The position numbers and the translations under genes are program-made. This document shows positions 4,113 to 19,405 of a stretch of 64,000 nucleotides of DNA, piece by piece (the first letter of the stretch is position 1; each line of letters begins with the position of its first letter). Source of the DNA: Mesorhizobium sp. L-2-11 (GTDB lineage: Bacteria > Pseudomonadota > Alphaproteobacteria > Rhizobiales > Rhizobiaceae); the NCBI RefSeq assembly GCF_016756595.1, contig NZ_AP023257.1, positions 558,001 to 622,000 on the forward strand. Direction: 5' to 3'. The notes beneath the pieces were generated by a model that worked only from the letters and a program-made list of their open reading frames with translations, did not search any database and was not told the DNA's origin.

Positions 4113-4189
<77 letters not shown>

Positions 4190-4577
4190 AATTTAATGAA
4201 CACGGATCGACCGCGCCTCATCGCCCGTTTTGTTCGGAAGCACCGCGGGAAGCATGACAGGTGGTAAGATTTTCGGTTTGGCGATCTGGGAGAGCCCCAT
4301 TGGCTGTTAGGCCACTCTTCAAAGGGCAACCAGGCCGATATGGCTTGTCCCGCGGTATGCAGTGTCGACTTGCCATGGTGCCAGCCGCACATGGCGTTCG
4401 CCATTGTCGCGTTTCGTGCCATTCAGCCGTCGAAAGTGATCCAATCCTCATCGGCTAGCGGTGCTCTCTCGTACAAACCTCCTTTGGACGCCGCAAGGAG
4501 CCTAATTTCGTTGCACGCTTCGCTCTTGTTAATGTAACTGGAGATGAGGGCCCTCTCACCATCGATTCATTGCGGTA

Positions 4578-6617
4578 ATGGGTTCTTTGTGGGTATGGGT
4601 GAGGGGGAATCCACTGCACATCCGTCAAAACCTCCGCGCTTTGGTAGAAGCGCTGCTGCGTCAGAAGGGCGAAAGCTTTTCTACTGAAAACCGCATAGGG
4701 CGGCGGCGCCAAACAGCGCCCTCTGCCGCACTGCAACTGCCGCGTCAGGCCGAGGATATCGAAGCCTTCGCCGTGCGAGCTGACAGCTTGCTACGCGCTA
4801 CCAAGACCCGGGTCTATGTCGATACTTCACTCTTGATGTGGATGATCCGCATCGGAAGCACAGCAAGGAGGGAGTTCGTCACCTGGCTCGATGATGCCTG
4901 CGGGCAGCGAGTTCGGGTTCCGGCGTGGGCATCGCACGAACTGTATCGCCACCATATCAAACGGAAGATTTGCATCGATTTGCAAAAACAGCTTACCGAG
5001 CTGGAGAACGTCGCCAAGGCCAGTTTTGATGTACTGTGGCCGTTCTTGGATGAGCCGCTTGCAGGATCACCGAGCGCGCATGCGCAACGCGTTGAAGCGC
5101 GAGATACCTTGAGGGCTGTTCGTACCCTTACGGCCCGAGCCGCTGACTGGGAGCAAAACTACGACCGCCATGCTGGCGAGGTCATTTCATTCGTCAATGA
5201 GCACGCGCTCGAAGGAAGCGCCATCTTTGAATATTTCAATGATATCGACGTGATGGCTGCCGCGCGGTTTACCGGACGGATGCCCCCTGGCTTTCAAGAC
5301 CGAAACAAGAAGGAGAGCACCGGGGAATCGGAAGAGAATGACGCCGACGAGAGTGTCGGAAGCAACCGATGGGGCGACCTGATGTTGTGGCGCGAGATTG
5401 TAGAGGACGCGCGCCTCTACCGCGCCGACGCAGTGGTGCTACTCACGAAGGACATTAAGAATGACTGGCGCATGGGAGGAACTCTTCCGCTCTCGGTTGC
5501 GACGGAGGAAAATCCAAAGCAGCATCGAATCGGTGCTCAGCCTGCCCACCCAATGCTAAGTTTCGAAGCGGCTCGACGGGCGGGTGTTCGAGAGGTTCTG
5601 TTGCTCGATCAACGACGGCTGGCCGGCGTAATGTCCGCGTCCGCGCCCTCGACTACTACTGCCTTCGTGACGGTTGCGCGCCCACCAGCATTGCCGCCCC
5701 CAAAGTCTCGCGATGAGCATCGTGCAGAGGAGATTGAACGTCAAACCGCGTTGCGTGACACTCTGCGAACGTCGCAGGCACATGCCGCGGGTGTCCGATT
5801 CCTGGATCCGCCCGGCGTCACCTTAACACCAGCGAAGCTCAAACGGGCGCTATTTGAAACACGCGATGCCGGCGCGATGCTAGATCCCGCCTTGCTATCT
5901 TTGGAAGCAGCTCTCGCGCAGTCGCTTCAGCATGATCAAGGGATCGAGGTTGTGATCTCGGAGGACCATCTCCGTCCCCTTACCGACGTTGGCCTCGTAG
6001 CTTTTGCGCGTCGATTGGGTCAGGCCGCGCGCCGGGATTCCTCCCGAAGCACAGCCACGATGGATCTAGCGACTATGCTAGAAAGCCTCCCGCCGGCGGT
6101 CGGTGGCTATATATATTTCGGGCTACTCGCTGCGATGTACTTCGGGGAAACCGACAATAATCTCCGTACCATCCCGGGGTCGCCGGCCGCCCAGCGACTG
6201 CTGTCGCTTCAGACCGCACCGTTCGCCAGACTTCCCCTCGAGGAGCTCCGTATTCGCGCAATGAAAGGCGAGCGCCTCCCTCTGTACCTACCCACCGCCA
6301 ACCCCGTTTCAGTTGCGGTGCGCCTGCGAACCGATACTGATCTTGAGCAACCTAACGTCCTGCGGGCCATTTGGATCGGTGACCAACAGATCCTAACAGG
6401 GGCGCAAGGGGATCACGATCTTCAACTCCAGCATCGCTTCGCAGGACACTCGGCGACACTCGATCTTATCTTAGACCACCTGGCTGACTTGTATGTCCTG
6501 CCGCGAGGTCAGCTCATGGCGGAGACGGATGTGGAAGGGCCTTTCAACCTCGACCCGCTATTGGGCTTCAAGCCTCCCCAGGACGTGTGGGTAGATCCGA
6601 CGCAGGAGAAAAACTGA
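4578..6617 (+). CDS. PIN_8-like (PIN-like domain) putative nuclease, 679 aa
   Basis: A PIN-like domain spans about residues 75-340. VYVDTSLLM carries the first acidic residue (Asp82), followed by SHELYRH (Glu121), then RWGDLMLWREI (Asp267) and TKDIKNDW (Asp292, Asp296). This D-E-GD-D order is that of PIN_8-type metal-dependent ribonucleases, often found in anti-phage loci. Residues 240-263 are an acidic insert rich in Glu and Asp. The C-terminal half (from about 380) has no motif I recognise and may bind a partner. The start at 4578 is uncertain: the first 70 residues look poorly conserved and no strong ribosome site is seen. The stop overlaps the next ATG (TGATG), so it is translationally coupled to the GHKL ATPase. 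Confidence 0.75.
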   Translation: MGSLWVWVRGNPLHIRQNLRALVEALLRQKGESFSTENRIGRRRQTAPSAALQLPRQAEDIEAFAVRADSLLRATKTRVYVDTSLLMWMIRIGSTARREFVTWLDDACGQRVRVPAWASHELYRHHIKRKICIDLQKQLTELENVAKASFDVLWPFLDEPLAGSPSAHAQRVEARDTLRAVRTLTARAADWEQNYDRHAGEVISFVNEHALEGSAIFEYFNDIDVMAAARFTGRMPPGFQDRNKKESTGESEENDADESVGSNRWGDLMLWREIVEDARLYRADAVVLLTKDIKNDWRMGGTLPLSVATEENPKQHRIGAQPAHPMLSFEAARRAGVREVLLLDQRRLAGVMSASAPSTTTAFVTVARPPALPPPKSRDEHRAEEIERQTALRDTLRTSQAHAAGVRFLDPPGVTLTPAKLKRALFETRDAGAMLDPALLSLEAALAQSLQHDQGIEVVISEDHLRPLTDVGLVAFARRLGQAARRDSSRSTATMDLATMLESLPPAVGGYIYFGLLAAMYFGETDNNLRTIPGSPAAQRLLSLQTAPFARLPLEELRIRAMKGERLPLYLPTANPVSVAVRLRTDTDLEQPNVLRAIWIGDQQILTGAQGDHDLQLQHRFAGHSATLDLILDHLADLYVLPRGQLMAETDVEGPFNLDPLLGFKPPQDVWVDPTQEKN

Positions 6618-8176
6618 TGGCAGAACCTCGACGTGTATCAGTTCAGCCGTATTTCGGCGGGTTCATTCTCGAGACGCTCACTGTCGGTATGTACGGTGAA
6701 TCCAAGAACGCCATCCGTGAATATGTGCAGATTGGATTCGACTCTATCCAACGGGCTATCGAGGAGCTCAAAATATTGCAGCCGGGCGAGGGGCTGATCC
6801 AGATTATCTTTGACGCTGACGCCGACGGGCTAAGGATACGCGACAACGGAGCCGGGCTTTCCACTAAGCAGGCAGTGCGCACGCTGGCCTCGATCGGGGC
6901 ATCCAACAAGGACTATACGACGGACGCAGGATTTCGGGGCATTGGTCGTTTAGCGGGTATCGTCTTCAGTGATATAGTCGCCTTCACCACAAAGGCCGCC
7001 GGTGAATCCGAAGCGACAAAAGTAGTATTTGATGCAAAGGAAATGCGGCACTTGATGTCGCCGGCCCGAGGAAGCGAATTAAGCGCTCAGGCGCTTTTGG
7101 AGCGATGCGTTAGTGCAACAATCATTGAAGCAAAAGCTGAGGAAGCTCCATATTTCGAAGTTTCCCTGCGCGGGTTCACCGAGCAGCCTGAAGAGGTGAA
7201 ATTGCCTTCGGCGATGGTCAGATTCATCTCTCAGGTTGCACCAGTGCCCTACAATACCGCGTTCCCATATCGACAGGCAATCCAAGATTTCGCCGCGCAA
7301 TCCAACATACGCATCGATTCAGTTCGCGTATTGGTCGAGGAGTATGGAAAAGATCCAGTCGAGGTTAGCAAGCCTTACACGGCGCGATATGAGGTTCAAG
7401 ACGCAGAGCGTTTGGTAGAGCTCACTGGTGTCGAGCCCTTCGTCTCGGCAACGAAGCGCTGGTGGGGATGGGTCGGGCGGAAAGATGTGCCCGGCTCCTA
7501 TGTTGATGCGGATGTGCGCGGAATCCGAGTTCGCGCGAAGAACATTCAGATCGACGGCACCGACGTCGTTAGAGAAATATTTCAGCGACAGGCAAAATCC
7601 AATGCGCGATATCAAGACTGGACCATAGGCGAGATCTTTGTAGATCTTAAGGCAGTCGTTCCGAATGCCAGGCGTGACGGTTTTGAAGATACTAAAGCGT
7701 GGAAGGAAGTGCGCAAAGAAATCGCCGACACGGTATGCAAGGACGTCGGTAGCTGGGCACAAGAAGTCTCCAACAAGGGACAATTGACGCTTCAGACATT
7801 GACCGAAAAGAAAGAGAAATTCGCAGTCGGCCTGGAGGCCCTCCGCCGAACCGATTTCCGAAATAAGGATCGCACCCTCACCCTCTCCGCGGATGTTACC
7901 AAGCTTCAAGGCGAGGTCGCGCGTGCTTCAAAAAATGCGGAGCCGACGACGCTCGCTGCCCTTCAGCACCTCAATTCTCAACTAATCGATATCAAGACAG
8001 AAGCGGTTTCCCAAATTGCTGGGTCGCCCGCCGTCGACGCTGAAGCCGTTGAAGCCCAAGCGCGCGATACTCTTCTGACCGAGTTGCTGGTTCTGTTCGA
8101 AAGCCACCTTGAAGCGCCATGTCTCTCGGCGGTCCGCAATGTAATAAGGGACGAATACGATTGGCCCCGAGACTAA
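6617..8176 (+). CDS. GHKL (HSP90-like) ATPase paralogue with a degenerate N-box
   Basis: 519 aa from ATG 6617, with AGGAG 8 nt upstream. The Bergerat-fold motifs are REYVQIGFDSI (N-box, about 34-44), RDNGAG (G1, 75-80) and GFRGIGRLAG (G2, 105-114). In the N-box the Asn that normally follows Glu by four residues and holds Mg2+ is Ile39, while the other motifs are intact. ATP hydrolysis may therefore be impaired. Later blocks (QVAPVPYNTAF at about 211, KNIQIDGTDVV at about 315, VVPNARRDGFED at about 350) match equivalent blocks in the facing ATPase at 8264-9856, showing common ancestry. The last 100 residues look coiled-coil. It is coupled to the PIN-like gene upstream. Confidence 0.85.
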   Translation: MAEPRRVSVQPYFGGFILETLTVGMYGESKNAIREYVQIGFDSIQRAIEELKILQPGEGLIQIIFDADADGLRIRDNGAGLSTKQAVRTLASIGASNKDYTTDAGFRGIGRLAGIVFSDIVAFTTKAAGESEATKVVFDAKEMRHLMSPARGSELSAQALLERCVSATIIEAKAEEAPYFEVSLRGFTEQPEEVKLPSAMVRFISQVAPVPYNTAFPYRQAIQDFAAQSNIRIDSVRVLVEEYGKDPVEVSKPYTARYEVQDAERLVELTGVEPFVSATKRWWGWVGRKDVPGSYVDADVRGIRVRAKNIQIDGTDVVREIFQRQAKSNARYQDWTIGEIFVDLKAVVPNARRDGFEDTKAWKEVRKEIADTVCKDVGSWAQEVSNKGQLTLQTLTEKKEKFAVGLEALRRTDFRNKDRTLTLSADVTKLQGEVARASKNAEPTTLAALQHLNSQLIDIKTEAVSQIAGSPAVDAEAVEAQARDTLLTELLVLFESHLEAPCLSAVRNVIRDEYDWPRD

Positions 8177-8263
8177 GTGCAAGGGCCTAGACGCATCAGC
8201 CCGACGCCGCAGCGCCGTATCTGAGTTGGCAGGCGCGGATGTGCTTGAGTATCGACTGACGCA

Positions 8264-9856
8264 CTAGCCAGTTTCACCGTCTGCTCGAAGTCTATCCAAT
8301 ATCCTGTCAACGAGGGCTTTCGCAGCGATGCGATTGGACGAGCATTCATAAACGAGCTTGAACATATGTTCGTACATCGATCGCTGATGAGGAGGCAGGC
8401 GCGCGAGCGGAGATGCATCAGGCACACCGTCGCTCATCAGCGCGGCGATCTCGGCACGCAAATCCGTCACCCGAAGTAGGAGCTCCTCCGGTTTTTCGTC
8501 AGCCAGCAATTTCATTCCTGCGATTCTCTCCATTTGGAGAAGCGTGGATTCTGCGGAAACGACGAGTGCTTCGCAATCGGCTGGTGACAAGCTGCCCTGA
8601 GCTATAATGCCAATCTTTTGGGCAATACTCTCGCAATGCATCTCGAACTCGCGGAGCCATTTGCGTTTTATCGAACTCGTCCGGCACCGTCGTGCTATGT
8701 CGCGCGCTGTCGGCGTCAGATGATTTGTCAAATTGTGGAAATGCGCATTTTGCTCGAAGTGGTCGCGGCGACCATTCGGTACGATCCTTCTGTCGATGAC
8801 GTGAACTTCACCCACTGACCAGACGTTGAATCGCGGCTCCGGATAAAGATCTTCCAGAAGTGAGTGGTCGCCCACTTGCACGTTGCCAGACCGAAGCCTG
8901 AGACCTTTGATCAACGCCCCGGTTGGAATGGCTCCCTCATATTCATGGTGCAGTATCCAAGCGACTGCAGCAATTTCGTTGTCGATGCCTGGAATCTTGA
9001 TGATCTCCACGCTTTCGAAAGCGATAGCGTGCTTTTCATCGATGAAATGATCGCGGTGAGGTCTGTAGACAGGGGTCACAAGTCCTTCGACTCGAATATC
9101 GAGCTCGCCAAGTTCGACTAAAGGCCGAAGCGCGGATGTGATCTCTGCGCCGAACTTGAACTCGGGTGCAAAGGGGACTGGGGCCACCTGACCCAGATAC
9201 TCCGCGACGGCGACTGGATTCATCAGGCGGTCGCTGCGCAAACGCAGGATTCCCTTAAGCTCAACTTCGAAGAAGCGCTCTGGGTACTCGCCGGCATCGA
9301 TACGCTCGATACTGACAATACTGTGGATGAGGCCGGCCACACCACTATCCAAGGGCGTTGCGCGCAACGCCGCCTTCAGACGGAGACAATCCCAGCGAAG
9401 TTCCGAGACGAAGTTTTCGTCGGCAGTTCGAGACCGAAAAATCAATTCCTGCGTATATCCTAGGCCAGCGAGGCGCCCCACCCCGCGAAACCCCCTGGCG
9501 GACGTTCCGCGCTTAGCACTTCCACCAAGCGCTGTCAGCTTGCGTCCAAATTCTGGCCAAGGGACGCCGCTGCCATTGTCGCGAATGCGTACGCTGCGGG
9601 CCGCAGAGTCGATGGCGATTTCGACCCGTCCGGCTTCGTCAGGGGAGAGAACGCCTTGACGTCGAGCTTCATCGATCGCGTCGGCGGAATTCTGCACATA
9701 CTCACGATAGACAGTCATCGGGTCGACATACATTGCGCTCGACACGAGTTCGAGGACATCGTTGCCGATCACGATGTCGTCTATCGCAACGCTGCCTGCC
9801 GTTGACAGGAGTTGCGCACCACGTTGCTCTGCGTTCGCTGTCCGATTGACCGTCAC
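8264..9856 (-). CDS. GHKL (HSP90-like) ATPase, intact motifs
   Basis: 530 aa with a GTG start at 9856, overlapping the stop of the radical SAM gene by 4 nt (GTGA). The N-box REYVQNSADAI has both catalytic Glu52 and Mg2+-binding Asn56. G1 is RDNGSG (92-97) and G2 is GFRGVGRLAG (122-131). QVAPVPFAPEF, GNVQVGDHSLL and VPNGRRDHFEQ correspond one-for-one to blocks in the converging paralogue at 6617-8176. The two may act as a hetero-oligomer with one active and one degenerate ATP site; this is inference. It is the last gene of the - strand operon. The 87 bp between the two ATPase genes shows no strong bidirectional terminator. Confidence 0.88.
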   Translation of the reverse strand: MTVNRTANAEQRGAQLLSTAGSVAIDDIVIGNDVLELVSSAMYVDPMTVYREYVQNSADAIDEARRQGVLSPDEAGRVEIAIDSAARSVRIRDNGSGVPWPEFGRKLTALGGSAKRGTSARGFRGVGRLAGLGYTQELIFRSRTADENFVSELRWDCLRLKAALRATPLDSGVAGLIHSIVSIERIDAGEYPERFFEVELKGILRLRSDRLMNPVAVAEYLGQVAPVPFAPEFKFGAEITSALRPLVELGELDIRVEGLVTPVYRPHRDHFIDEKHAIAFESVEIIKIPGIDNEIAAVAWILHHEYEGAIPTGALIKGLRLRSGNVQVGDHSLLEDLYPEPRFNVWSVGEVHVIDRRIVPNGRRDHFEQNAHFHNLTNHLTPTARDIARRCRTSSIKRKWLREFEMHCESIAQKIGIIAQGSLSPADCEALVVSAESTLLQMERIAGMKLLADEKPEELLLRVTDLRAEIAALMSDGVPDASPLARLPPHQRSMYEHMFKLVYECSSNRIAAKALVDRILDRLRADGETG

Positions 9857-11484
9857 GCCGCGGCCCTTTCACGCGCCTTCGATTTCGCCGCGGACGGCGA
9901 CCACATTTCCTCGTGATCAAGACCCGCATCTTCGACGCGCTCATCCTCGGGAAGACCCATGTGTGCAGTAACCTTTCCGCGCGTGAGCTGCTTCTGCGCT
10001 GCCCAGATGGCAAGGAGCTCATCCTTAGGCAGGGGCACGTAGAAATGGAGGGCCCGTTTTAGGCTTGTAGTTGTGGCATGATCAGGAAGCATCGCAAACT
10101 GGCGCGGATCACACGAGGAAAGCAACTCGACCAGTTCGGCCCGCTCCAAGGCGTCCAACTTGGCCACCTCGGCCTGATAATCTCCCAATCGCCCCTTCGG
10201 ATCGGATCGCTCATACCAGTCACGGTTGAAAATAAAATCGTGCGGCATGAGAAGAATGCGCTCATAGTCCGCGAACGTGTCGCCAAAGGCGCGCTTGAAG
10301 AAGCTTGGCTCGCCGCTGACGATCCCGTGTGTCGCCTGAAGGATTATTTGCATCGACCGGAGTTGGTAGCGCGACCACTTGTCCCCGACATGCCCTCGAT
10401 CCGGCCTATCTGTCGGCTGATAGCGCATTGGAAATGACCAAATTCGAACGCCCAGTTCTTCGTTGAGCGCTACGTTCAAGCGCATGCGCTCAAACAAGTC
10501 GGCAGGTCCGTCATGGAAATTGTAGAGCATATAATTTGACAATTCGGTCAAGCCGAACTCTGCCGCATACCGAACAGCCTGCTCGTACGGTTTCCGGACA
10601 CCCAAATGGTCGAAAGCGATGCGAAGCGGCTTAAGGCAAATCGTTGCCAGCTCCCGCAAATACATCCGATCCTTGCAGAGAATGCGGGCGTCAACTCCTT
10701 GGTTGAAGTCGACTCGGCGCTGCACAGGGGTTCGCATACCGGCGCGCTGTAATTTTGCTCCTGGTGTGAAGCCAAGGTCGCGGATTTCAGCGATGATCTC
10801 CTTGAAGCGCGGTGAGGCAACTACGTTGTTGTCCATGAGCATAAGATCCTTCTTCGGACCGTAGTGCTCGTCAATCGCGCGGATGAGATCCGTCAATGAT
10901 TCAGTATCGCGTTGCGCGCCTTCTAGCTTCGGAACGCCGCAGAAGTGACATTTCCGAATGCACCCGCGTGATGTGTAGGCGAAATAGGCGTCCCGAACGG
11001 GATACTGGTATTCGATCTGTGAAAGGATGTCGTAGTCCGGCACTAGATCCTCAATTGGCCTTCCGTCAACATCGTCGGCATAGATCTCCTCTGAAAACTC
11101 GTCGAGTTGGAGCGCCGCGGCTGGCGGAGCAGACAGCAGTCCCTTGATGAAGCGCACGCCGTGCCAACGACGCTCGGTCAGAAAGCGGTCGTGCATGAGC
11201 GATGCAGCAATTCCTCCAACAAAAACCTTGTCGGCTTGCCCGTTCGCCACTTCCAGAGCGAAGTCGATTGTTTGCGCAATTTTCGGGTATTCGAAAGAAA
11301 ACAGCGTCGTGACGTAGATACGATCCCAAGCCTGCGAAAGAGCCGATCTGTCCTCGCCTTTTATGAATCGCACACGGTCACGCTTCCCGCGAGGACCGTG
11401 GTATTGGGCGATTTTCATTAGGCCGAGGGGCGGATATTTGTTCTTGTATCCTGGCTCTATGAGCAAAATGTTCTTGTTAGCCAT
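9853..11484 (-). CDS. Radical SAM enzyme with N-terminal cobalamin-binding-like domain
   Basis: 543 aa from ATG 11484, supported by AAGGTGG upstream; it overlaps the preceding gene by 8 nt. The cluster motif is CIRKCHFC, giving Cys175, Cys179 and Cys182 (CxxxCxxC) for the 4Fe-4S/SAM site. Residues 1-150 (starting KNILLIEPGY and including VFVGGIAASLM) resemble the Rossmann-like domain preceding many B12-type radical SAM proteins, though a clear DxHxxG cobalamin motif is not seen. LMDNNVVASPRF and NQGVDARIL fit the radical SAM barrel. The substrate is unknown. Its position next to a DGQHR protein makes nucleic-acid base or backbone modification an attractive but unproven role. Confidence 0.88.
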   Translation of the reverse strand: MANKNILLIEPGYKNKYPPLGLMKIAQYHGPRGKRDRVRFIKGEDRSALSQAWDRIYVTTLFSFEYPKIAQTIDFALEVANGQADKVFVGGIAASLMHDRFLTERRWHGVRFIKGLLSAPPAAALQLDEFSEEIYADDVDGRPIEDLVPDYDILSQIEYQYPVRDAYFAYTSRGCIRKCHFCGVPKLEGAQRDTESLTDLIRAIDEHYGPKKDLMLMDNNVVASPRFKEIIAEIRDLGFTPGAKLQRAGMRTPVQRRVDFNQGVDARILCKDRMYLRELATICLKPLRIAFDHLGVRKPYEQAVRYAAEFGLTELSNYMLYNFHDGPADLFERMRLNVALNEELGVRIWSFPMRYQPTDRPDRGHVGDKWSRYQLRSMQIILQATHGIVSGEPSFFKRAFGDTFADYERILLMPHDFIFNRDWYERSDPKGRLGDYQAEVAKLDALERAELVELLSSCDPRQFAMLPDHATTTSLKRALHFYVPLPKDELLAIWAAQKQLTRGKVTAHMGLPEDERVEDAGLDHEEMWSPSAAKSKARERAAA

Positions 11485-12517
11485 TGACCACCTTGTACCG
11501 AGTACGCTTGCGGGCATCGCGGATGAAATCGACCGCGGCTTTCACGCCGCCCTGTCCGCCGAACCCCTTCAGCGGACCGGTCGTCGACCAGTCGATGGCC
11601 CTGGCGAAGTCGGCTAGGGCAGAGGTAAACGCTCGCCTGTCGCAAACACGACCGGCGTCGCGACATTCGATGAAAATGTCGGCGGCAATCCGCATCAGCG
11701 CGTACACGCCGATACCTTTTGTCAGCATGTGACGACGCGTGTCGGCCCACTCCTGCGGCAGGGTGGCGACCACAGCATTCCAAAAATCTAGGATGACCCG
11801 CACCGTCTCATCGGGCGAATGCGAGGAAAGGATCTCGGTCGCCTTCAAGAACTCATGGATAGCCTGCTGCATCATCCGCAGGGACACAATCCGCTTCAGG
11901 CCAGACGTCGTTTTGCCGCCCAGGTTGAGACGACGCTGCCAAGGGGAGTCTCCGGTGCTGTTCAGCTGGAGCGCGATGTATAATTCAGGGCGCTCTTCCG
12001 CCAACGCCTCGGAGAGTTGCGCTTCATGATAGTCCAGCAGGCTAGTGCTTAAGCCCTTTGCTTTGCTGTTAATGACGCTGAAAACGTCCATCTCCTCCCG
12101 CTCAGAAAGACCGATGAAGCACATGAATGGCAGCAGAATAGGCAGATCCCCCAGGTGACCGAGGCGGTGCTGGCAGTCCACCTGCGCCATGATCTTGCCA
12201 GCGGCAGCGGAGATTTCGAGCCTCACTGCACCGCCGGCCACTTCGACTACCTTCCAATCATTCTTCGCTGACGGGCGAAGGTTGAGGGTCAGTGGAATCG
12301 TCGAACTGTCGGGCTCCTTGATGTAGCGCCGGAAATCCTGGCTGTGGCGTTCATTGAAGGGCCGCTGATAGCCGCGCCCGCTGTCCTCATCGAGGATATC
12401 CGGGAAGCTCAACCGGTAAAGGAGATCAGCCGGGGCAAAGCCCAGCAACACAGGTCTATGCGCTGAACGCCCATGCAGGCATTCGATGACGATGGGTTCC
12501 AAAGCGAATCGCTCCAA
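11477..12517 (-). CDS. DGQHR-domain (DndB-type) protein
   Basis: 346 aa. The hallmark is AQVDCQHRLGHL at about residues 111-122, a DGQHR motif with Gly replaced by Cys. Upstream lies SGRGYQRPFNERHSQDFRRYI (residues 47-67), typical of the family's N-terminal block, and FSVINSKAKGLSTSLLD follows, as in DndB-like proteins. Family members regulate or guide DNA phosphorothioation (DndB) or act with 7-deazaguanine DNA modification. The only workable start is TTG 12517: the frame is open further upstream but has no ATG or GTG, and no Shine-Dalgarno is visible. An 11 bp perfect hairpin ends 2 nt before this TTG. It overlaps the radical SAM gene, so the two are co-translated. Confidence 0.82.
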   Translation of the reverse strand: MERFALEPIVIECLHGRSAHRPVLLGFAPADLLYRLSFPDILDEDSGRGYQRPFNERHSQDFRRYIKEPDSSTIPLTLNLRPSAKNDWKVVEVAGGAVRLEISAAAGKIMAQVDCQHRLGHLGDLPILLPFMCFIGLSEREEMDVFSVINSKAKGLSTSLLDYHEAQLSEALAEERPELYIALQLNSTGDSPWQRRLNLGGKTTSGLKRIVSLRMMQQAIHEFLKATEILSSHSPDETVRVILDFWNAVVATLPQEWADTRRHMLTKGIGVYALMRIAADIFIECRDAGRVCDRRAFTSALADFARAIDWSTTGPLKGFGGQGGVKAAVDFIRDARKRTRYKVVNG

Positions 12518-12518
12518 G

Positions 12519-12547
12519 CCAAAGTGCAGCTTCAGACTGCACTTTGG
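12519..12547 (-). promoter_or_regulatory. Perfect inverted repeat abutting the DGQHR gene start
   Basis: CCAAAGTGCAG and CTGCACTTTGG form an 11 bp perfect stem with a 7 nt loop. It lies in the only sizeable gap (94 bp) inside the operon, ending 2 nt before the TTG start. There is no U-tract, so it is not a typical terminator. It could be an operator for an autoregulatory protein, or an RNA hairpin that hides the initiation region. Confidence 0.7.
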
Positions 12548-12611
12548 CGAGCATATGAGTGCAGGTCAACGCGCTTCAGCGCAAGCCAGTCACAATCTTC
12601 TGCAGTCGCTG

Positions 12612-13631
12612 TCAGTTCTTGGGTTTGAGTTTGGAGCGGATGACGTCAACCCGACCTGCCAGCTTGTCGAACTCGAACACAATTTTCTTGCGCGTTTCGC
12701 CCTGCGCGCGACCGAGCGCCGCCTCCACGTCGGGCTTTGCGAGCCACTGTCTGAACTTCGCGAGCTTCTTATAGGGAGTGCTGTCGGCGCCGGCTTCGAC
12801 TGCCTGCTCGTGTGCGTCGTCGAAATCATACGATCCGCTGCCAAATTTCTGGAGCGCTTTAGGCGCGCCGCAGATGACCGGCAGACGATCACGCACATCA
12901 ACGGCACGCGCAATCTCACCAGATTTGATTTTCTCAACGACGAGAGCATCAAAGCCGCTCACCTTCAGCCTTGCCTTCCGGATCGTCGAAGATTTTAGAT
13001 ATTCATCGTAATAGCTCCACCGCGCCGTATCCACTTCGCCATGGTCGAGCATGAATTGATAGGTCGCGATGAAGTGCTCGACCTTGCGCCTCGAAAGACC
13101 TATCTCAAGCGCCAATTCGGCCGGATCGACGTCGTGCGCCTTATGTCTCCGGTACAGGAAGCCTGCCTGCTCAAACGGCGCCCAATCCTTCTTGCCCTTG
13201 ATGTGGTACTGGCCAAGCAGCGCGAAGATCAGACCTTCCTCAAGGTCACCTGGAAGCAGACGACATTTCATCCGACCCCATTTGACTGGATCGATGCGCG
13301 CAAGTGCACGATAGGCCGCAAGCCGGCTGTTGCCCTCAAGGACTTCGAGTTTGCCGGCGCGGACCACCACGGGGTCAGTTAGCCCGCCGTCGCGCTTGAT
13401 GTCTTGGATCAAAGCCTTGACGTGATCCATTTCCAAAAGCTTTCGCTCGATGTCGGCTTGGCTGGGCTCGCCACCATCCATTCGCAGGATCGAGTAAACG
13501 CGCGGATTGTCAGCGAAGAACCGCAGCTGCGATTGCTCGATTACGGTGGTGGTGGCGGGCACCTCCACGCCACGGATCAGAAGTGTCTCCACGTTGTCTG
13601 AAGCGGCGTTGGTTGCTTTCGTGGCTGTCAT
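12612..13631 (-). CDS. ParB/sulfiredoxin-like nuclease-domain protein
   Basis: 339 aa. The N-terminal ParB-like fold shows TDPVVVRAGKLEVLEGNSRLAAYRAL, with the box GNSRLAA at residues 100-106 (equivalent to the GxxRxxA nucleotide-binding box of ParB and DndB-like proteins). A helical region follows with a helix-turn-helix-like ELALEIGLSRRKVEHFIATY at about 171-190. The C-terminus is basic. ATG 13631 overlaps the helicase stop by 4 nt (ATGA). It is one of two ParB-like genes in the operon. No ParA is nearby, so plasmid partition is unlikely; DNA binding or sensing in the modification/defence operon is more plausible. Confidence 0.8.
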   Translation of the reverse strand: MTATKATNAASDNVETLLIRGVEVPATTTVIEQSQLRFFADNPRVYSILRMDGGEPSQADIERKLLEMDHVKALIQDIKRDGGLTDPVVVRAGKLEVLEGNSRLAAYRALARIDPVKWGRMKCRLLPGDLEEGLIFALLGQYHIKGKKDWAPFEQAGFLYRRHKAHDVDPAELALEIGLSRRKVEHFIATYQFMLDHGEVDTARWSYYDEYLKSSTIRKARLKVSGFDALVVEKIKSGEIARAVDVRDRLPVICGAPKALQKFGSGSYDFDDAHEQAVEAGADSTPYKKLAKFRQWLAKPDVEAALGRAQGETRKKIVFEFDKLAGRVDVIRSKLKPKN

Positions 13632-15109
13632 TGCCCTCCATCCCCATCGAGGCGCAGCACATCACGAACCATCTCGCCAAAGCGGTAGTCAGCACGTGCG
13701 TCATATTCAGTCCGGTTTATATCACCTTGACCCAGTTGAGCGGCAAGATGCTTGGCAGTTAGCAGCGCGTCCACCCAAACGTCGACGGTGTTCGTCGCAA
13801 TGAGATTGCGGACGTGGCATACGCGTTCCTGGGAGATGCGATGGATGCGATCCTGTGCCTGAAGGTAATCGTCGAGGCTGAAGGTCCGATCGTAGAAGAT
13901 GGCATGATTGGCGACTGTCAGCGTCAGCCCCTCTTTTGCGGCGCCCGGCGTCGCCACCAGCACCCGACATTCAGGGTCAGTCTTAAAGGCGGTCAGCGCC
14001 GCTTCGCGTTTCGCCATCGACAGGCCGCCGTGAACCACGGCCACACCCAAATTTTCAAAGTGAAAGGCGAGCATATCCGCGTTGTCTGTGAACGACGTCC
14101 ACACGATCGCCTTCTCACCAGAATCTACGATCTCATGAAGAAGCGACTCCAGAGCCGGCAACTTTCCAGGCATAGCCCGATAGGCTTGATCAACCATTGC
14201 CGGATTCGATGCGACTTGCACGAGACGGAGAAGCCGCTTCAGAAGCCCTTCAGCGTCATCGAGTATGGCTTGGCCGCCTCGGACGACTACGGCCGCCAGT
14301 TCGTCGCGGAACTGGGCATAGATCTCGGCTTGGCGTGGCTCAAGCGCGACTTCGATGTTGCTTATCGTCTTGTCGGGCAATTTGAGTCCCGAAGACTTCT
14401 TCGTCTCACGAACCGAAAAGGTTCGGATACGCTCGAATAGTTCTTCCAACGCATCAGCGAAGTGGGATGCCCGCTCCTCGTCCCGGCCAAGGTCGTTCGC
14501 CAGATCGAGCTGTCTGCGGAAGCTCGGGAAGTCATCACCGAGCGACTTGCCGCCATCGAGAAAGTGGACTTGCGACCACAAATCAAAGGGCCGGTTGGCG
14601 ACTGGGGTGCCCGTCATGATAACTCGCCGAACGAAGCCATCGGCGAGCCCGAGGAGCGCCTGCGCGATTTCAGCTTCGGGATTCTTGATCTTGTGCGCCT
14701 CGTCGAGAACTACAGCAACCCGACGGGTCTTCAGAAACAGGTCAAGTCGACTTCGTTCGGACACTACCGCTTCGTAGTGGGTCAGATAAAGCCGTGCAGG
14801 GCTATTGAAGGCGTAGAAATTGGCGATTCGGTCTTGCCCGATGATGCGCGGTGTTAGGTGGCTGTGGGAGGCAATCTCGCCACGCCAGTTTTCAATCAAC
14901 CCCTTCTTTGTGACAATCATGGCCGAGTCGGCGACATCTCTCGCCAACCACGAGAGTGCTAAATCTAGTCCGATCTTGGTCTTGCCCAGCCCTTGCTCAT
15001 GGAACACGGCAGCGTATGTGAGATCTTTGATGGCCTCGAGAGCCTCGAGTTGATGCGGGAACGCATCCCGCTTCGCGCTCAAGTTGGCAGCCCGCTGAAC
15101 TTTCAGCAT
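13628..15109 (-). CDS. SNF2-family helicase/translocase
   Basis: 493 aa. Motif I is EQGLGKTKIGLDLA (GLGKT at 40-44) and motif II is LDEAH (DEAH at 136-139) followed by KIKNP, typical of SNF2 proteins. Motif III is MTGTPVANRPFDLWSQ, motif V is TPGAAKEGLTLTVAN, and motif VI is QAQDRIHRISQ. A complete two-lobe ATPase with little extra sequence. Such enzymes move along duplex DNA in several restriction and modification systems (DISARM, Dpd, BREX relatives). It follows the PD-(D/E)XK gene by 25 nt and is coupled to the ParB-like gene downstream. Confidence 0.95.
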   Translation of the reverse strand: MLKVQRAANLSAKRDAFPHQLEALEAIKDLTYAAVFHEQGLGKTKIGLDLALSWLARDVADSAMIVTKKGLIENWRGEIASHSHLTPRIIGQDRIANFYAFNSPARLYLTHYEAVVSERSRLDLFLKTRRVAVVLDEAHKIKNPEAEIAQALLGLADGFVRRVIMTGTPVANRPFDLWSQVHFLDGGKSLGDDFPSFRRQLDLANDLGRDEERASHFADALEELFERIRTFSVRETKKSSGLKLPDKTISNIEVALEPRQAEIYAQFRDELAAVVVRGGQAILDDAEGLLKRLLRLVQVASNPAMVDQAYRAMPGKLPALESLLHEIVDSGEKAIVWTSFTDNADMLAFHFENLGVAVVHGGLSMAKREAALTAFKTDPECRVLVATPGAAKEGLTLTVANHAIFYDRTFSLDDYLQAQDRIHRISQERVCHVRNLIATNTVDVWVDALLTAKHLAAQLGQGDINRTEYDARADYRFGEMVRDVLRLDGDGGQ

Positions 15110-15134
15110 GGAAATTCACTGCAAGCTGCCATCA

Positions 15135-15542
15135 TCATCCCAGCCCATCCAGAACAACCAGCCGCGTTGGTGCTCCGCCGAGCCGTTGGGTGGTCTCCGT
15201 TACGATCCGCCGAGCCGTTGCACCCGCAGTCAACGGAACACTCAGAATAAAAACTCCGCCTGCCGTGACCTTCAAATATTCAAGAAACGCAGTGATCTGT
15301 TCCTGTGAGTGGATTGCTTCCAGGTCACGCTTCGTTTTGGCCTCACCGATCAGAGTCACTGTGGTTGGCACGTCTGTCGCATACACGTCGGGCACAAACC
15401 CGCCAACAGCCGGCGGCCGCTCGTCGCGGACAGGCGCATTCGAGTCATCGCGAATTGCAATATCGGTCAATGCGCGGAAATCACTATCAATAAAGTCCAG
15501 GATCGCGCGTACCAGACGCGCGTGCGTCACCGATTCCGGCAT
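15135..15542 (-). CDS. Small PD-(D/E)XK nuclease-like protein
   Basis: 135 aa from ATG 15542, two bases after the stop of the IS66-split ParB-like gene (TGACGATG). The core reads GGFVPDVYA (Pro51-Asp52), then LIGEAKTKRDL (Glu67-Ala68-Lys69), then SQEQITAFLEYL. This is the beta-beta-alpha order of a PD-(D/E)XK nuclease with an ExK motif and trailing Gln-containing helix. The short length resembles Holliday-junction resolvase-like or VRR-type domains. The longer upstream frame (to 15623) lies inside the preceding gene and is not needed. A nuclease role with the SNF2 motor is inferred. Confidence 0.7.
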   Translation of the reverse strand: MPESVTHARLVRAILDFIDSDFRALTDIAIRDDSNAPVRDERPPAVGGFVPDVYATDVPTTVTLIGEAKTKRDLEAIHSQEQITAFLEYLKVTAGGVFILSVPLTAGATARRIVTETTQRLGGAPTRLVVLDGLG

Positions 15543-15742
15543 CGTCAACTCACCAAACCGAGCGACTTGTTCAGGCGGGCAAGTTCGCCCTGCGCTTCGA
15601 TCAGTGCTTGCGCTGTATCGCAACCTGGGTCGGCACTCAGCCGCTGACTTTCCGACCAGGTCAGTGCAGCAATGCGCGTAATCAATGCCCGTGCGATCTG
15701 GCCGATCTCAGCTTCCTGAAGCGTCTTATTGAGAGTAAGCGG

Positions 15743-17392
15743 TCAGCCGATAACGTCAGGCCTAAAGTTCCAAGGCATGAGCATTTCGATTTCGGATGCC
15801 GGCCAGCCTTGAGCGATGCGGGTCAAGGTCTGCGAGAGCCAGTCGAGCGGATCGACGCTGTTCATTTTGCAGGTTTGCAGCAAGGTGGCTACCGTCGCCC
15901 AGGTTCGTCCACCGCCGTGGCTGCCGGCGAATAGACTATTCTTTCGCGTGATCGTCTGGGGCCTGATTGCACGCTCGACGATATTGGAGTCGATTTCGAT
16001 GCGACCGTCCATCAGAAAGCGTTCCAGCGCCTCCCGCCGGGTGAGCGCGTAGCGGATCGCCTCGGCGGTCTTGGATTTTCCGGAGACCTTGCCCAGTTCC
16101 GCTTCCCATAGATCGAAGAGGCTCGCGACAATGGCCACGGACTTTTCCTGACGTAGCGCGGCGCGGCTTCCGGCATCCTTGCCGCGGACCTCGTCCTCGA
16201 CCTTCCACAATTCGGTCATGGCGATGATCGAATCCGTCGCGGCCTGCGAGACCCCGCTGATGTGCAGGTCGTAGAATTTGCGCCGCAGGTGAGCCCAGCA
16301 CCCGGCGAGCCGGATTGTTTCATTGCTGCCGGCTTTGGCCCGTGCCTTGACCAGGTTGGTATAGGCCGAGTAGCCATCCACTTGCAGGATACCGCTGAAT
16401 CCGGCGAGGTGGCGCGCCACGCAATCCGCACCTCTGCTGTCTTCAAAACGATAGGCAACCATTGGCGGACTGGTTCCGCCATAGGGTCGGTCATCCCGTG
16501 CGTAGGCCCACAACCAGGCTTTCGTGGTTTTCCCGGAACCAGGGGCAAGGGTGGGCAAGGTCGTCTCGTCGGCGAAGACCCTTTCGCCCTCCTTGATGCG
16601 CTCCAGTATGTAATCAGCAAGCATCTGCAGCTCGAAGCCCAGATGCCCCATCCACTGCGCCATCAACGACCGGCTGATCTCGACGCCGTCGCGCAGATAG
16701 ATCGCCTCCTGCCGATAAAGCGGGAGGCCGTCGGCGTATTTGGAGACGGCGATATAGGCGAGCAGCCGCTCCGTCGGCAGCCCGCTTTCGATGATGTGCG
16801 CCGGCGCCAGAGCCTGGACCACGCCGTCACGGCCCCGGAAGGCGTATTTGGGACGGCGCGTGACGATGACCTGGAACTTCGGCGGCACGACGTCCAGCCG
16901 CTCGGATCGATCCTCGCCGATCAGAACCTTTTCAAGCCCCTCGCAGTCGGCCGGGATTTCCGGCTCGACGACCTCCTCGATGCGTTCGAGGTGGGCAGCA
17001 AAGCCCTTGCGCGGACGCGGGGCGCGCTTCGGCTTGTTCCCGACCGCGCGGTCGAGTTCGCTCCGGATTTCCGAAAGGCCGGTCTCGACCTCTTCGAAGG
17101 CAAAGGAGGCCTGCTCGTCGTCGATGGCCAGGCGTAGCCGCTCGGAACGCGTGCCATGTTGCGTGCGCTGTAAAACTTTCAGGATTGACGTGAGATTGGC
17201 GATCCGCTCGCTGGCGCTTTTCTCGACAGCTTTCAGCCGGGCGACCTCCGCCTCAGATGCTGCGATCCGAGCGTCGGCGACTGCGATCCGGGCCTCGCTT
17301 GCAGCCTGCTCGCGAGCCATGGAAAGGATCATCGCCTTCAGCGCATCAACGTCGTCGGGAAGGGCAAGACCCGGTAGAACCATGGCAAGCAA
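15743..17392 (-). CDS. tnpC: IS66 transposase TnpC
   Basis: 549 aa. It has an N-terminal coiled coil (residues 20-70, rich in Ala/Glu/Arg), a zinc-finger-like and linker region, then the DDE catalytic core. The core includes FADETTLP (first Asp), LQVDGYSAYTN (second Asp) and IDSNIVERAIRP (catalytic Glu), with GCWAHLRRKF between. Full length for the family. The stop lies 8 nt inside the left end of the element. It is separated from tnpB by 67 bp. Confidence 0.96.
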   Translation of the reverse strand: MLAMVLPGLALPDDVDALKAMILSMAREQAASEARIAVADARIAASEAEVARLKAVEKSASERIANLTSILKVLQRTQHGTRSERLRLAIDDEQASFAFEEVETGLSEIRSELDRAVGNKPKRAPRPRKGFAAHLERIEEVVEPEIPADCEGLEKVLIGEDRSERLDVVPPKFQVIVTRRPKYAFRGRDGVVQALAPAHIIESGLPTERLLAYIAVSKYADGLPLYRQEAIYLRDGVEISRSLMAQWMGHLGFELQMLADYILERIKEGERVFADETTLPTLAPGSGKTTKAWLWAYARDDRPYGGTSPPMVAYRFEDSRGADCVARHLAGFSGILQVDGYSAYTNLVKARAKAGSNETIRLAGCWAHLRRKFYDLHISGVSQAATDSIIAMTELWKVEDEVRGKDAGSRAALRQEKSVAIVASLFDLWEAELGKVSGKSKTAEAIRYALTRREALERFLMDGRIEIDSNIVERAIRPQTITRKNSLFAGSHGGGRTWATVATLLQTCKMNSVDPLDWLSQTLTRIAQGWPASEIEMLMPWNFRPDVIG

Positions 17393-17459
17393 CAGAGCAC
17401 AAAAACAGCCGCTTTCCCAACCGTTCCAGCCGCATGATTCATCTTGCCGCAGGCCGGTT

Positions 17460-17804
17460 TCAGCCCGTCGATAACGGCCGCCTGACCCTGGCCGGACGAA
17501 TCTTTTTCCAGTCCAGTCCGGCCAGAAGCGCCATCAACTGGGCGTGGTCGAGACGCATGCGCGCGGCCGATATCCCCGGCCAGCAGAAGCTGTGATCTTC
17601 CAGAGTCTTCGAATAAAGACAAACCCCGCTGCCGTCCCACCACACGATGCGAACCCGGTCCGCACGCTTCGAACGGAATACGTGAAGTGCCCCCGAGAAT
17701 GGGTCCAGGCCGCCATCCCTGACCAGCGCCATCAAAGATGCCGCGCCCTTGCGGAAGTCGACCGGCTGGCACGACACGTAAACCACCACACCGGAAGCGA
17801 TCAT
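17460..17804 (-). CDS. tnpB: IS66 accessory protein TnpB
   Basis: 114 aa. It matches the IS66 Orf2 pattern: YVSCQPVDFRKGAASLMALV near the start, then FRSKRADRVRIVWWDGSGVCLY and FCWPGI. Required with TnpA for IS66 transposition, biochemical role poorly known. It overlaps tnpA by 4 nt, implying coupled translation. Confidence 0.95.
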   Translation of the reverse strand: MIASGVVVYVSCQPVDFRKGAASLMALVRDGGLDPFSGALHVFRSKRADRVRIVWWDGSGVCLYSKTLEDHSFCWPGISAARMRLDHAQLMALLAGLDWKKIRPARVRRPLSTG

Positions 17805-18208
17805 GCCTTACGAACCGCGCGGATGATCCTCGCCAGGCGATCGGGATCGACATCGCCGCCGGCGCGCACCACTGCGTCGCCAATGACGATTTCCACCGTG
17901 TCGCTGCCCACCGCTTCAAAGCGCGTGAACTTCGCCGGCTTGCTCGCTCCCTCCGTCAGTGGCGCAACCATGCCCGACGAAAGCGCCTTGCGGCGCCACG
18001 CATAGAGCTGCGAGGGGTCCAGCCCCTCGGAACGCGCAACCGCCGAGACATTGCCCCCTGGCGAGAACGCTTCGGCGACAAGCCGTGCCTTCTCTTCGTC
18101 CGACCGATGGCGCGGCTTGCGTCGGGACGGCACAGGCTCCGCCGTCAAAATCTCGAATGTTCGATGATGGCTCATACTGTCGCTCATAGGATTCTCCGCA
18201 TGATTCAT
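17801..18208 (-). CDS. tnpA: IS66 accessory protein TnpA
   Basis: 135 aa. It carries a helix-turn-helix of the transposase_8 type: KARLVAEAFSPGGNVSAVAR followed by LDPSQLYAWRRKA, about residues 46-80. It is the first gene of the IS66 operon, 57 bp inside the right end. Several Met codons lie at its start, so initiation could be up to 7 codons downstream. Confidence 0.93.
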   Translation of the reverse strand: MNHAENPMSDSMSHHRTFEILTAEPVPSRRKPRHRSDEEKARLVAEAFSPGGNVSAVARSEGLDPSQLYAWRRKALSSGMVAPLTEGASKPAKFTRFEAVGSDTVEIVIGDAVVRAGGDVDPDRLARIIRAVRKA

Positions 18209-19379
18209 GCTGAAAATGAGCGATCAACCGCCTGCACGCTACGTGGGGACGCCTACGCGCTTACTATTGAGATCGGGTTTCTCCAGCAGCGCCTCAGCTT
18301 TGCGGGCACCCTGCTTTAGAAACACGTCGCGGGCCTTTTCGTGACGCAGGATTCTTGGCAGCACCCGAACCTTCTGCAACGGGTACAGCTTTCCATCGTG
18401 AATCCAGCGAGCGAAATCGCTCAGCGTAAAGCCGGCTGCGGTGACCGCTTGCTTGATTCCCGGCTTCTGCAACTCGATGAAGCCGCTAAAGCGTGTTGTA
18501 TCGAACGACCCATCGTCGCCGACGACTGGTCGGTAGTGCTCCTCCATGTCGGCATAAGCATTGATGTGTTCGACGACCTCGGTTTGTCGACCGCCACAGT
18601 AGTCAACGATCGTAGCGAATGGCAGATGCTCCTGGGTGCGAAGTTCGTACAGGTACTTTGCTTTCGAATATGGATCCCAGGGTCGAGTGCCGACCAAATG
18701 AATTTGCAGTCGGATCGCGTGCACGGAAGCATCATCGATCTCGTTGTGAACCAGAGCCGGAATGTCAGTCCAGGTCCCTTTCACGCCAGTCTTGAGAAAA
18801 TGCTTATATAGCGCGACCCGGGTATTGCCCTCGACACATATGAGCGAGCCATCCGCTCGCCGGTTTAGGATGATCGGCTGTATGATGCCGCCGTTGGTGA
18901 TAATCGACTGCTTCAGCTTTTCAAAGGTCGTACTAGTCGAGCTGCCAACATCGTCGTCATTGCCTGCGCCCAGCGCCAAGAAGATTTGCTCCGGCGTTGG
19001 TTGATCACCGTACATCTCGAGGAACTTGCGAATTCTAGGGTTGGACCTGTCGAGCTCGATATCCTCGACAGCAATTAATGAATGGATTCCTGAACTAACC
19101 ACGACAGCCCCCTGCGAATCGCCTACCCATTTCACTATTAGCTGCGAGCAGGCGAACCTCAACAGCCATCATCAAGGGTTCTAGGGCAAATGGCGAGTCT
19201 ACTATTTCAGAGCGCCTGACTGCCAAGGAGCATCGAGACGTCGCAACGCCCGTTACTCGCCTTCACAGTTTCGCGGACGTACGCCTTCACTCCGGGGTTC
19301 TTCGTTCGTTCCGTTTCTGTTATGAACGGCTCGGTCATGAGCGAGGCACCCGTGCGCAAGATCATCCACACCCGAGCCC

Positions 19380-19405
19380 GCAGAGGTTCGAATCATGTGC
19401 GCCAA
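19380..19405 (+). other. Degenerate copy of the tRNA-Arg 3' end (possible old attachment site)
   Basis: GCAGAGGT, TTCGAATC, TG and TGCGCCAA occur in the same order and strand as in the tRNA 3' half at 4153-4190, with short internal deletions. A full tRNA cannot be folded. It could be the decayed second attachment site of the island. The surrounding 19103-19554 shows no gene. Confidence 0.4.

Follow-up and report, generated by a model that had tools for sequence, protein, structure and literature searches.

The window analysed here is a 64,000-nucleotide stretch of the genome of Mesorhizobium sp. L-2-11 (contig NZ_AP023257.1, positions 558,001 to 622,000), and the system in question is an island of nine open reading frames (ORFs) at 4578-19162 of the window, which includes a radical S-adenosylmethionine enzyme (rSAM) and two GHKL ATPases. 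An earlier note had described nine genes in two converging, internally overlapping units beside a tRNA-Arg gene and had read them as a candidate DNA-modification or defence system; all nine frames were recovered where it placed them. The features are as follows.

4113..4189, + strand: tRNA-Arg (ccg), bordering the low-GC island on its left (ARAGORN, GC profile)
4578..6617, + strand: PIN_8-domain protein (Pfam PF18476, 1.5e-17); start codon uncertain, the part common to relatives beginning at about 4800
6617..8176, + strand: GHKL1, Hsp90/MutL-like ATPase, paralogue of GHKL2 (profile-profile E 3e-82)
8264..9856, - strand: GHKL2 ATPase, the constant partner of rSAM (HATPase_c_3 1.1e-7; HtpG N-domain profile match 2.3e-11)
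9853..11484, - strand: rSAM (CxxxCxxC motif; predicted fold)
11477..12517, - strand: DGQHR/DndB-family protein, overlapping the rSAM start (TIGR03187 4e-38; PADLOC DpdB 5e-17)
12612..13631, - strand: ParB1, with a ParB/sulfiredoxin (Srx) and a helix-turn-helix DNA-binding domain (structure model)
13628..15109, - strand: SNF2-family motor without a fused nuclease (SNF2-rel_dom 3e-25; phrog_62 1.2e-96)
15135..15542, - strand: small PD-(D/E)XK-type nuclease (conserved motif residues)
15735..18264, strand not assigned: insertion element in the ParB2 gene, which we take to be of the IS66 family (8-base target duplications 15727-15734 and 18265-18272; transposase-type ORFs)
18239..19162, - strand: ParB2, paralogue of ParB1, interrupted by the insertion; the ORF as read stops inside the element (profile-profile; EGNTR motif)
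19384..19405, + strand: imperfect repeat of the tRNA-Arg 3' end, perhaps left over from an attachment site (11-base exact match)

The forward unit (PIN and GHKL1) and the reverse unit (GHKL2 to ParB2) converge at 8176/8264, and four junctions overlap, namely PIN/GHKL1 by 1 nucleotide (nt), GHKL2/rSAM by 4 nt, rSAM/DGQHR by 8 nt and ParB1/SNF2 by 4 nt. The GC content drops from about 0.64 in the region to about 0.57 across the island, the IS66 stretch excepted. The candidate attachment-site repeat is weak, its local score of 15 being no better than the window background (mean 13.7, best 18). The domain readings of the earlier note stand as well: PIN_8, HATPase_c_3 (in GHKL2), DndB (2.6e-7, in the DGQHR protein) and SNF2 exceed the Pfam cut-offs, and Radical_SAM (2.8e-5, in rSAM) and ParB_N (0.0056, in ParB2), which fall below them, are carried by motif and fold evidence. 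Pfam gave no match for GHKL1, ParB1 or the nuclease, and the assignments of these three come from profile comparison, a structure model and conserved motifs. The copy in the window is damaged, as the IS66 element interrupts the ParB2 gene and the N-box asparagine of GHKL1, present in the 20 other rows of an alignment of 21 GHKL1-type proteins, is replaced; the other motif residues examined are present. Neither lesion is mentioned in the earlier note. Judging from these lesions the copy may be partly inactive, and intact relatives of the locus exist, those of Novosphingobium pNL1 and Rhizobium plasmid pR132505 being examples.

Three sets of rSAM loci were combined to follow the recurrence of this gene set, giving 93 loci in total (6 from plasmids, 80 from genomes and 7 from viral contigs), with six further loci (L001, L002, L009 and L097-L099; L numbers denote individual loci) left out; near-copies among them (L029-L031, L010/L011, L052/L093) make the counts non-independent. 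A GHKL gene lies directly downstream of rSAM on the same strand in 92 of the 93 loci, with a median gap of -3 nt, and the sole locus without it, L063, stops at a contig edge. The DGQHR gene directly precedes rSAM in 45 loci. An SNF2 gene is found in 50 loci; in 49 of these the genes for the nuclease, ParB2 and ParB1 lie on its strand and no more than 3.5 kb away. PIN is found in 29 loci and is followed by a GHKL gene in 28. The set thus recurs elsewhere in conserved order, as the earlier note had proposed to check, and a chance neighbourhood is rejected on plain counts of recurrence, order and co-occurrence.

Reverse searches from the partner genes gave a similar picture. On plasmids, PIN was found in 12 records, which coincide with the 12 that have full-length rSAM. 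ParB1 and ParB2 each match seven records, every one of them rSAM-bearing, and GHKL2 matches 14 records; rSAM is present in the 12 whose coverage reaches 80%. On viral contigs, GHKL2 matches 15 loci on 14 contigs, with rSAM beside it in 13 loci, and ParB1 and ParB2 match the same eight contigs, seven of which have the rSAM-GHKL core. The eighth, the viral-classed L107 (IMGVR_UViG_2878915049_000003, 5666-10921), holds a ParB2-nuclease-SNF2-ParB1 module together with an rSAM of a different subfamily, which lies directly upstream of and overlaps ParB2 and falls into the same PHROG as the rSAM of the window; no GHKL was found within the 16.8 kb examined, and a gene with an S24 peptidase domain follows the module.

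What accompanies the core differs between loci. With the models used, 63 of the 65 loci with full flanks have one or more modules of the SNF2, PIN, long-DGQHR or GHKL1 type; of the other two, one has only an adjacent DGQHR gene and the other no module by these models, although L086, scored as module-free, contains a 453-residue ORF with a weak HEPN match, and modules counted as absent may sit elsewhere, as PIN does in a Roseomonas plasmid. On a tree of the 71 rSAMs whose loci have enough flank, the label changes required are no fewer than 18 for SNF2, 12 for PIN and 8 for adjacent DGQHR, so modules have often been gained, lost or moved. A test for mutual exclusion of the SNF2 and PIN modules gave no result. 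The core is thus a two-gene rSAM-GHKL unit with exchangeable motor and nuclease modules, and of the earlier note's single nine-gene system the co-occurrence of the genes holds, whereas the picture of one nine-part machine gives way to a core with modules that come and go.

A further module was found in six distinct loci in which a HerA motor and a NurA-like protein lie beside rSAM, five of them with GHKL: Marinitoga virus L009, gut scaffold L098, Azospirillum L054, the proteobacterial metagenome-assembled genome L084, and viral contigs L120 and L121. Two unrelated motor-nuclease pairs are thereby joined to the same core. A HerA of known structure matches at 1.5e-46, which supports the HerA identification; that of NurA is less sure, with a profile match of 1.9e-22 to a Marinitoga virus gene annotated as a HerA-associated nuclease and no NurA match among solved structures. 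Pfam gave no named family for either protein. Other variants were also noted. A long DndB-type protein in pNL1 (L006, 17183-19492) and the ORF in L086 (13531-14892), a relative of the DGQHR profile, both match HEPN_Swt1 weakly at the C-terminus, below the Pfam cut-off, and represent an alternative module. Five loci (L035, L046, L065, L075, L080) represent a variant in which the GHKL gene is divergent and a family of conserved ORFs recurs; the L080 member of this family is a DUF87/HerA-type ATPase, and relatives of DUF5131 occur in some of these loci. In L135 (6355-9608), a 521-residue ParB-like-looking protein directly precedes rSAM and a recombinase-like ORF follows it, perhaps a minimal form.

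The model of rSAM (pLDDT 83.7) has a Rossmann, cobalamin-binding-like N-terminal domain, a radical SAM barrel and a disordered tail. CxxxCxxC is invariant in 23 of 23 aligned rSAMs, and motif and barrel together place the enzyme in the radical SAM superfamily. Its modelled fold is near those of OxsB, TsrM, MgmA and MiaB, with MiaB as the best Foldseek match (3.8e-9), and by sequence the only solved chains matched were RimO and TM_1862 (0.0009 and 0.002). The domain architecture fits that of cobalamin-type enzymes, and cobalamin binding is a prediction from the model; AerR is a cobalamin protein, and AprD4 has the same architecture without cobalamin. Nucleotides are substrates of cobalamin-type rSAMs such as OxsB, radical SAM isomerases take part in phage thymidine hypermodification, and viperins make a small molecule or altered nucleotide. 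It is conceivable, if highly improbable, that rSAM makes a small molecule or an altered nucleotide and that the remaining genes are separate layers. The nucleotide chemistry of OxsB-like enzymes would agree with this, as would short rSAM homologues of Bacteroides and methanogen phages (L097, L099), which do not have the other genes beside them; one of these homologues is near a PAPS reductase-like gene and methylases. However, the tight overlap of rSAM with GHKL2, and often with DGQHR, suggests a protein complex, as does a conserved VED(A/S)GL motif at the end of the predicted-disordered C-terminal tail (window 9853-9975, - strand), which is likely a docking peptide.

The N, G1 and G2 boxes are the named motifs of GHKL ATPases. 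GHKL1 and GHKL2 are paralogues over their full length, and GHKL2 has all three boxes intact within the N-terminal GHKL domain typical of MORC/paraMORC proteins; the boxes are also conserved in GHKL1 as a family, but not in the N-box of the window copy. GHKL proteins of this sort are thought to remodel DNA-protein complexes (PMC2292703).

For the remaining proteins, D-x-Q-H-R is invariant in 18 of 18 aligned DGQHR proteins, and the window member scores 60.6 bits against a DpdB equivalog cut-off of 300, which places it in the DpdB superfamily, outside the equivalog. DndB/DpdB proteins are contained in DNA-modification systems (PMC10853773, PMC12839542). In the ParB1 model (pLDDT 90.2), the ParB/sulfiredoxin domain superposes on nucleotide-bound ParB (1.7 A, 94 residues) and is accompanied by a KorB/Noc-like helix-turn-helix part, the combination found in ParB clamps. 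ParB1 and ParB2 are paralogues (profile-profile 99.8%) that share the family motif EGN(S/T)R (EGNTR in ParB2), which differs from the canonical ParB motif GERR. Both proteins look clamp-like and may share the CTP binding and sliding of ParB clamps; by sequence ParB1 matched no solved chain, and the ParB1 and DGQHR profiles did not align with each other. Named after the motifs of the PD-(D/E)XK fold, the E-x3-H, D, PD and E-A-K residues of the nuclease are each kept in at least 16 of 17 aligned proteins, and the protein has no match in Pfam, PADLOC, NCBIfam or PHROGs. The PIN acids D82, E121, D267, D292 and D296 are identical in 18 of 18 aligned proteins. The SNF2 protein cross-matches the PADLOC models of DpdE, DrmD, DrmA, ZorD and BrxH; the motor and the nuclease that the earlier note had called for are both present in the locus.

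With MiaB as top structural match, RimO and TM_1862 as the solved chains found by sequence, and PIN_8 and weak HEPN_Swt1 modules beside the core, it may be asked whether the system acts on RNA, with a MiaB/RimO-like rSAM modifying tRNA or ribosomes and PIN (HEPN elsewhere) cleaving unmodified RNA. This appears very unlikely, since the SNF2, HerA, ParB and PD-(D/E)XK modules indicate double-stranded DNA, and 64 of the 93 loci show no PIN, with the reservation that part of the flanks are short and that one plasmid has an unlinked PIN.

The gene set is sporadic in distribution, strongly conserved and mobile. On plasmids, 12 records, by strain name about nine plasmids, match 80% or more of the rSAM length with 74-84% identity, and seven of the 12 records with PIN are typed as conjugative. 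All nine genes were identified by profile in four of the six plasmid loci viewed (from Bradyrhizobium, Mesorhizobium and two from Rhizobium); the pNL1 locus from Novosphingobium aromaticivorans, which has no SNF2 module, contains a long DGQHR gene, and on the Roseomonas plasmid PIN lies elsewhere, unlinked to the locus. A scan of one genome per species yielded 146 relatives; only the best 80 were retained, a choice that lets close relatives dominate. By record title these spread over eight named phyla, with 55 from Pseudomonadota, 15 from Acidobacteriota, three from Verrucomicrobiota, two from Gemmatimonadota, one each from Binatota, Nitrospirota, Chloroflexota and Latescibacterota, and one unplaced. 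Many relatives are metagenome bins, including most of those outside Proteobacteria. Seven further rSAM relatives were found in the viral-contig scan, and a broader protein search, in which 8000 candidates were scored, gave at least 7702 proteins, some of which may belong to such loci, with 120 of them listed. The records annotate the members separately, as 'radical SAM protein', 'ATP-binding protein', 'DGQHR domain-containing protein' or 'hypothetical protein'.

Given the presence of the loci on large plasmids, the integrases and resolvases beside them and the KorB/Noc-like part of ParB1, the genes might serve the maintenance of plasmids or other elements, or competition between elements, through partition, exclusion or plasmid interference instead of anti-phage immunity. 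We consider this quite unlikely, as the loci also occur on megabase chromosome contigs and viral-classed contigs, and no further family among the flanking ORFs recurs in more than 11 of 96 loci.

The earlier note had held that the locus is not a known Dnd, Ssp, Dpd, BREX or DISARM system, which for Dnd, Dpd, BREX and DISARM agrees with the searches made here: the nine proteins fit no system in PADLOC-DB 2023, and the reading as a known system was rejected because PADLOC, NCBIfam, Pfam and the literature searched gave no account of this set. The locus resembles Dpd in that the latter has a DGQHR/ParB-like DpdB and an SNF2 motor, DpdE, whose models are matched by the DGQHR and SNF2 proteins of the window; it differs in its rSAM-GHKL core, its DGQHR score far under the DpdB cut-off and the lack of a DpdA match in the genome (NF041059, E 0.001), a search whose sensitivity is unproven, as 0 of 14 control genomes pass the cut-off. 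The models for DndC and DndD (TIGR03183, TIGR03185) likewise have no match in the genome, with no control genome over the cut-off either. This sets the locus apart from Dnd/DndFGH systems, which share with it a DndB-family protein and varied nucleases around one core (PMC10853773). Among the PADLOC matches of the nine proteins there is no Ssp name (SspB, SspC or SspD), the presence of Ssp models in the library being unconfirmed; DISARM, which has DrmA-C and a methylase beside a DrmD helicase, is represented only by the DrmD and DrmA cross-matches of the SNF2 protein, Zorya by ZorD without ZorA or ZorB, and BREX by the BrxH helicase without PglX, PglZ or BrxC. No methyltransferase domain was detected by Pfam in the nine proteins, as the earlier note had maintained.

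Restriction-modification (R-M) systems with MORC/paraMORC proteins (PMC2292703, Iyer 2008) similarly combine GHKL ATPases with motors of superfamily II and nucleases of the restriction fold, with the same proposed role in ATP-driven remodelling of DNA-protein complexes; however, they commonly include DNA methylases, whereas the set in the window is methylase-free and rSAM is constant, and the text of that paper has no word starting with 'ParB' or 'radical'. HerA-nuclease defence complexes (PMC11291478) are comparable to the loci with HerA and NurA-like proteins, which differ from them in lying beside GHKL and rSAM genes. The combination was not found in the excerpts of the DefensePredictor study (PMC13092281), the BREX survey (PMC12839542), the HEF_HK paper (PMC8011034), the domain review (PMC10952713), the GrwAB/Shedu paper (PMC12137116), the EVE/DCD paper (PMC7641849) or PMC10853773. 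Literature on the parts and on DNA hypermodification, from which most subscription journals fell outside the scope, left the gene set undescribed. Its parts list is like that of Dpd or paraMORC R-M systems, and a radical SAM core is in no system of the literature searched. The earlier interpretation is thus borne out in part, for recurrence, for the lack of a match to a named system and for the motor and nuclease; its proposals that rSAM makes a DNA modification, that the ParB and DGQHR proteins place or sense this, and that SNF2 with the nuclease attacks unmodified DNA stay hypothetical.

Gene content, order, co-occurrence and module swapping, the catalytic motifs of the families and the predicted folds of rSAM and ParB1 are the observations on which a mechanism can be proposed. 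As general background, ParB-fold proteins bind DNA sites, and a motor of SNF2 or HerA type paired with a nuclease is able to degrade DNA. A mobile, modular anti-invader system of R-M type, with an rSAM-GHKL core and exchangeable motor-nuclease modules, has in our judgement about an even chance of being the correct reading; the defence role is suggested by parts and context, and we infer from the same material that rSAM acts on DNA, which polarity the mark has and what each nuclease targets. In this anti-invader system, rSAM and its GHKL ATPase, the latter acting as an ATP-driven clamp, would add or read a chemical DNA mark, often together with the DGQHR/DndB protein. The modules would comprise (i) a pair of clamp-like ParB-fold proteins binding DNA and recruiting the SNF2 motor and the small PD-(D/E)XK nuclease, (ii) the PIN nuclease paired with another GHKL protein, (iii) long proteins of DndB type, some of which match HEPN weakly, and (iv) the HerA motor with the NurA-like protein. 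The motor-nuclease modules would destroy DNA of the wrong mark status, and PIN could be a second, RNA-directed layer. A mark-dependent system appears to be the simplest joint reading of core, ParB, motor and nuclease. A more specific form can be put forward tentatively, with less than even confidence: a new class of R-M-like immunity in which a cobalamin-type rSAM writer and an Hsp90/MORC-like GHKL clamp place a mark other than methylation, phosphorothioation or deazaguanine, and paired ParB readers steer interchangeable SNF2 plus PD-(D/E)XK, HerA plus NurA-like and PIN modules.

The opposite polarity, in which the core marks the invader, fits as well as self-protection. That the ParB-SNF2-nuclease module was not found without rSAM is compatible with both a host-protecting and an invader-labelling mark, whereas a core that is almost never alone fits an invader-labelling mark better. 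In classical R-M systems the modification gene often persists alone, as seen with orphan methylases; set against this habit, the small number of module-free loci (2 of 65) speaks mildly against a self-protecting mark. A related possibility is that rSAM-GHKL, instead of protecting the host, modifies or damages invader DNA, or senses a phage modification, and that the motor and nuclease act on the mark. The further module in nearly every full-flank locus favours this, as does the fact that ParB1 and ParB2 without any rSAM were not found in the plasmid and viral-contig searches; DUF262/ParB-fold domains are also thought to sense DNA modification in GmrSD-like systems (PMC12137116). As no discrimination signal is known and indiscriminate marking would endanger the host, we regard this possibility as credible but unlikely.

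The flanking genes are suggestive of defence. Among 120 flanking ORFs, 62 PADLOC families match at 1e-10, compared to three among the 33 window ORFs outside the island, a comparison that counts families rather than genes and has a small control; the 120 ORFs, which were given to PADLOC and Pfam, come from 143 picked by length and distance, and some may not be genes. The 25 of the 62 families that were listed include DndH, PD-T7-1, PD-T7-5, PtuA, dCTPase and DRT. In the Mesorhizobium plasmid pMSNZP2077A (L005, 25312-29204), CBASS-type genes (DncV-like, patatin, ThiF) lie about 5-6 kb from the system.

Several points weigh against the R-M-like, anti-invader system. The family-based counting and small control of the flank comparison are among them; mad8 matches in the control ORFs too, and the flanking DndH matches (four members) are probably the HerA-type ATPases of some loci and not independent neighbours, Pfam DUF87 being found in four members among the flanking ORFs. 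In fold, rSAM is as close to MiaB, an RNA-modifying enzyme, and to RimO, which modifies a ribosomal protein, as it is to OxsB. The system is rare, as 384 other genomes of the class yielded one partial rSAM match, and to this are added the damage to the window copy and the scarcity of cores without modules. In the literature searched, neither experiments on interference with phages or plasmids nor nucleoside analyses were found for such loci.

If rSAM acts on DNA, the system would represent a new chemistry for the marking of self and non-self, and if it writes the mark, the system would be categorically new, beyond a variant of the modification, motor and nuclease kind. Even if rSAM spares DNA, the loci present a defence-like core with plug-in motor-nuclease modules. 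They also unite GHKL/MORC ATPases, ParB and DndB proteins, which have possible roles in immunity, in one testable locus.

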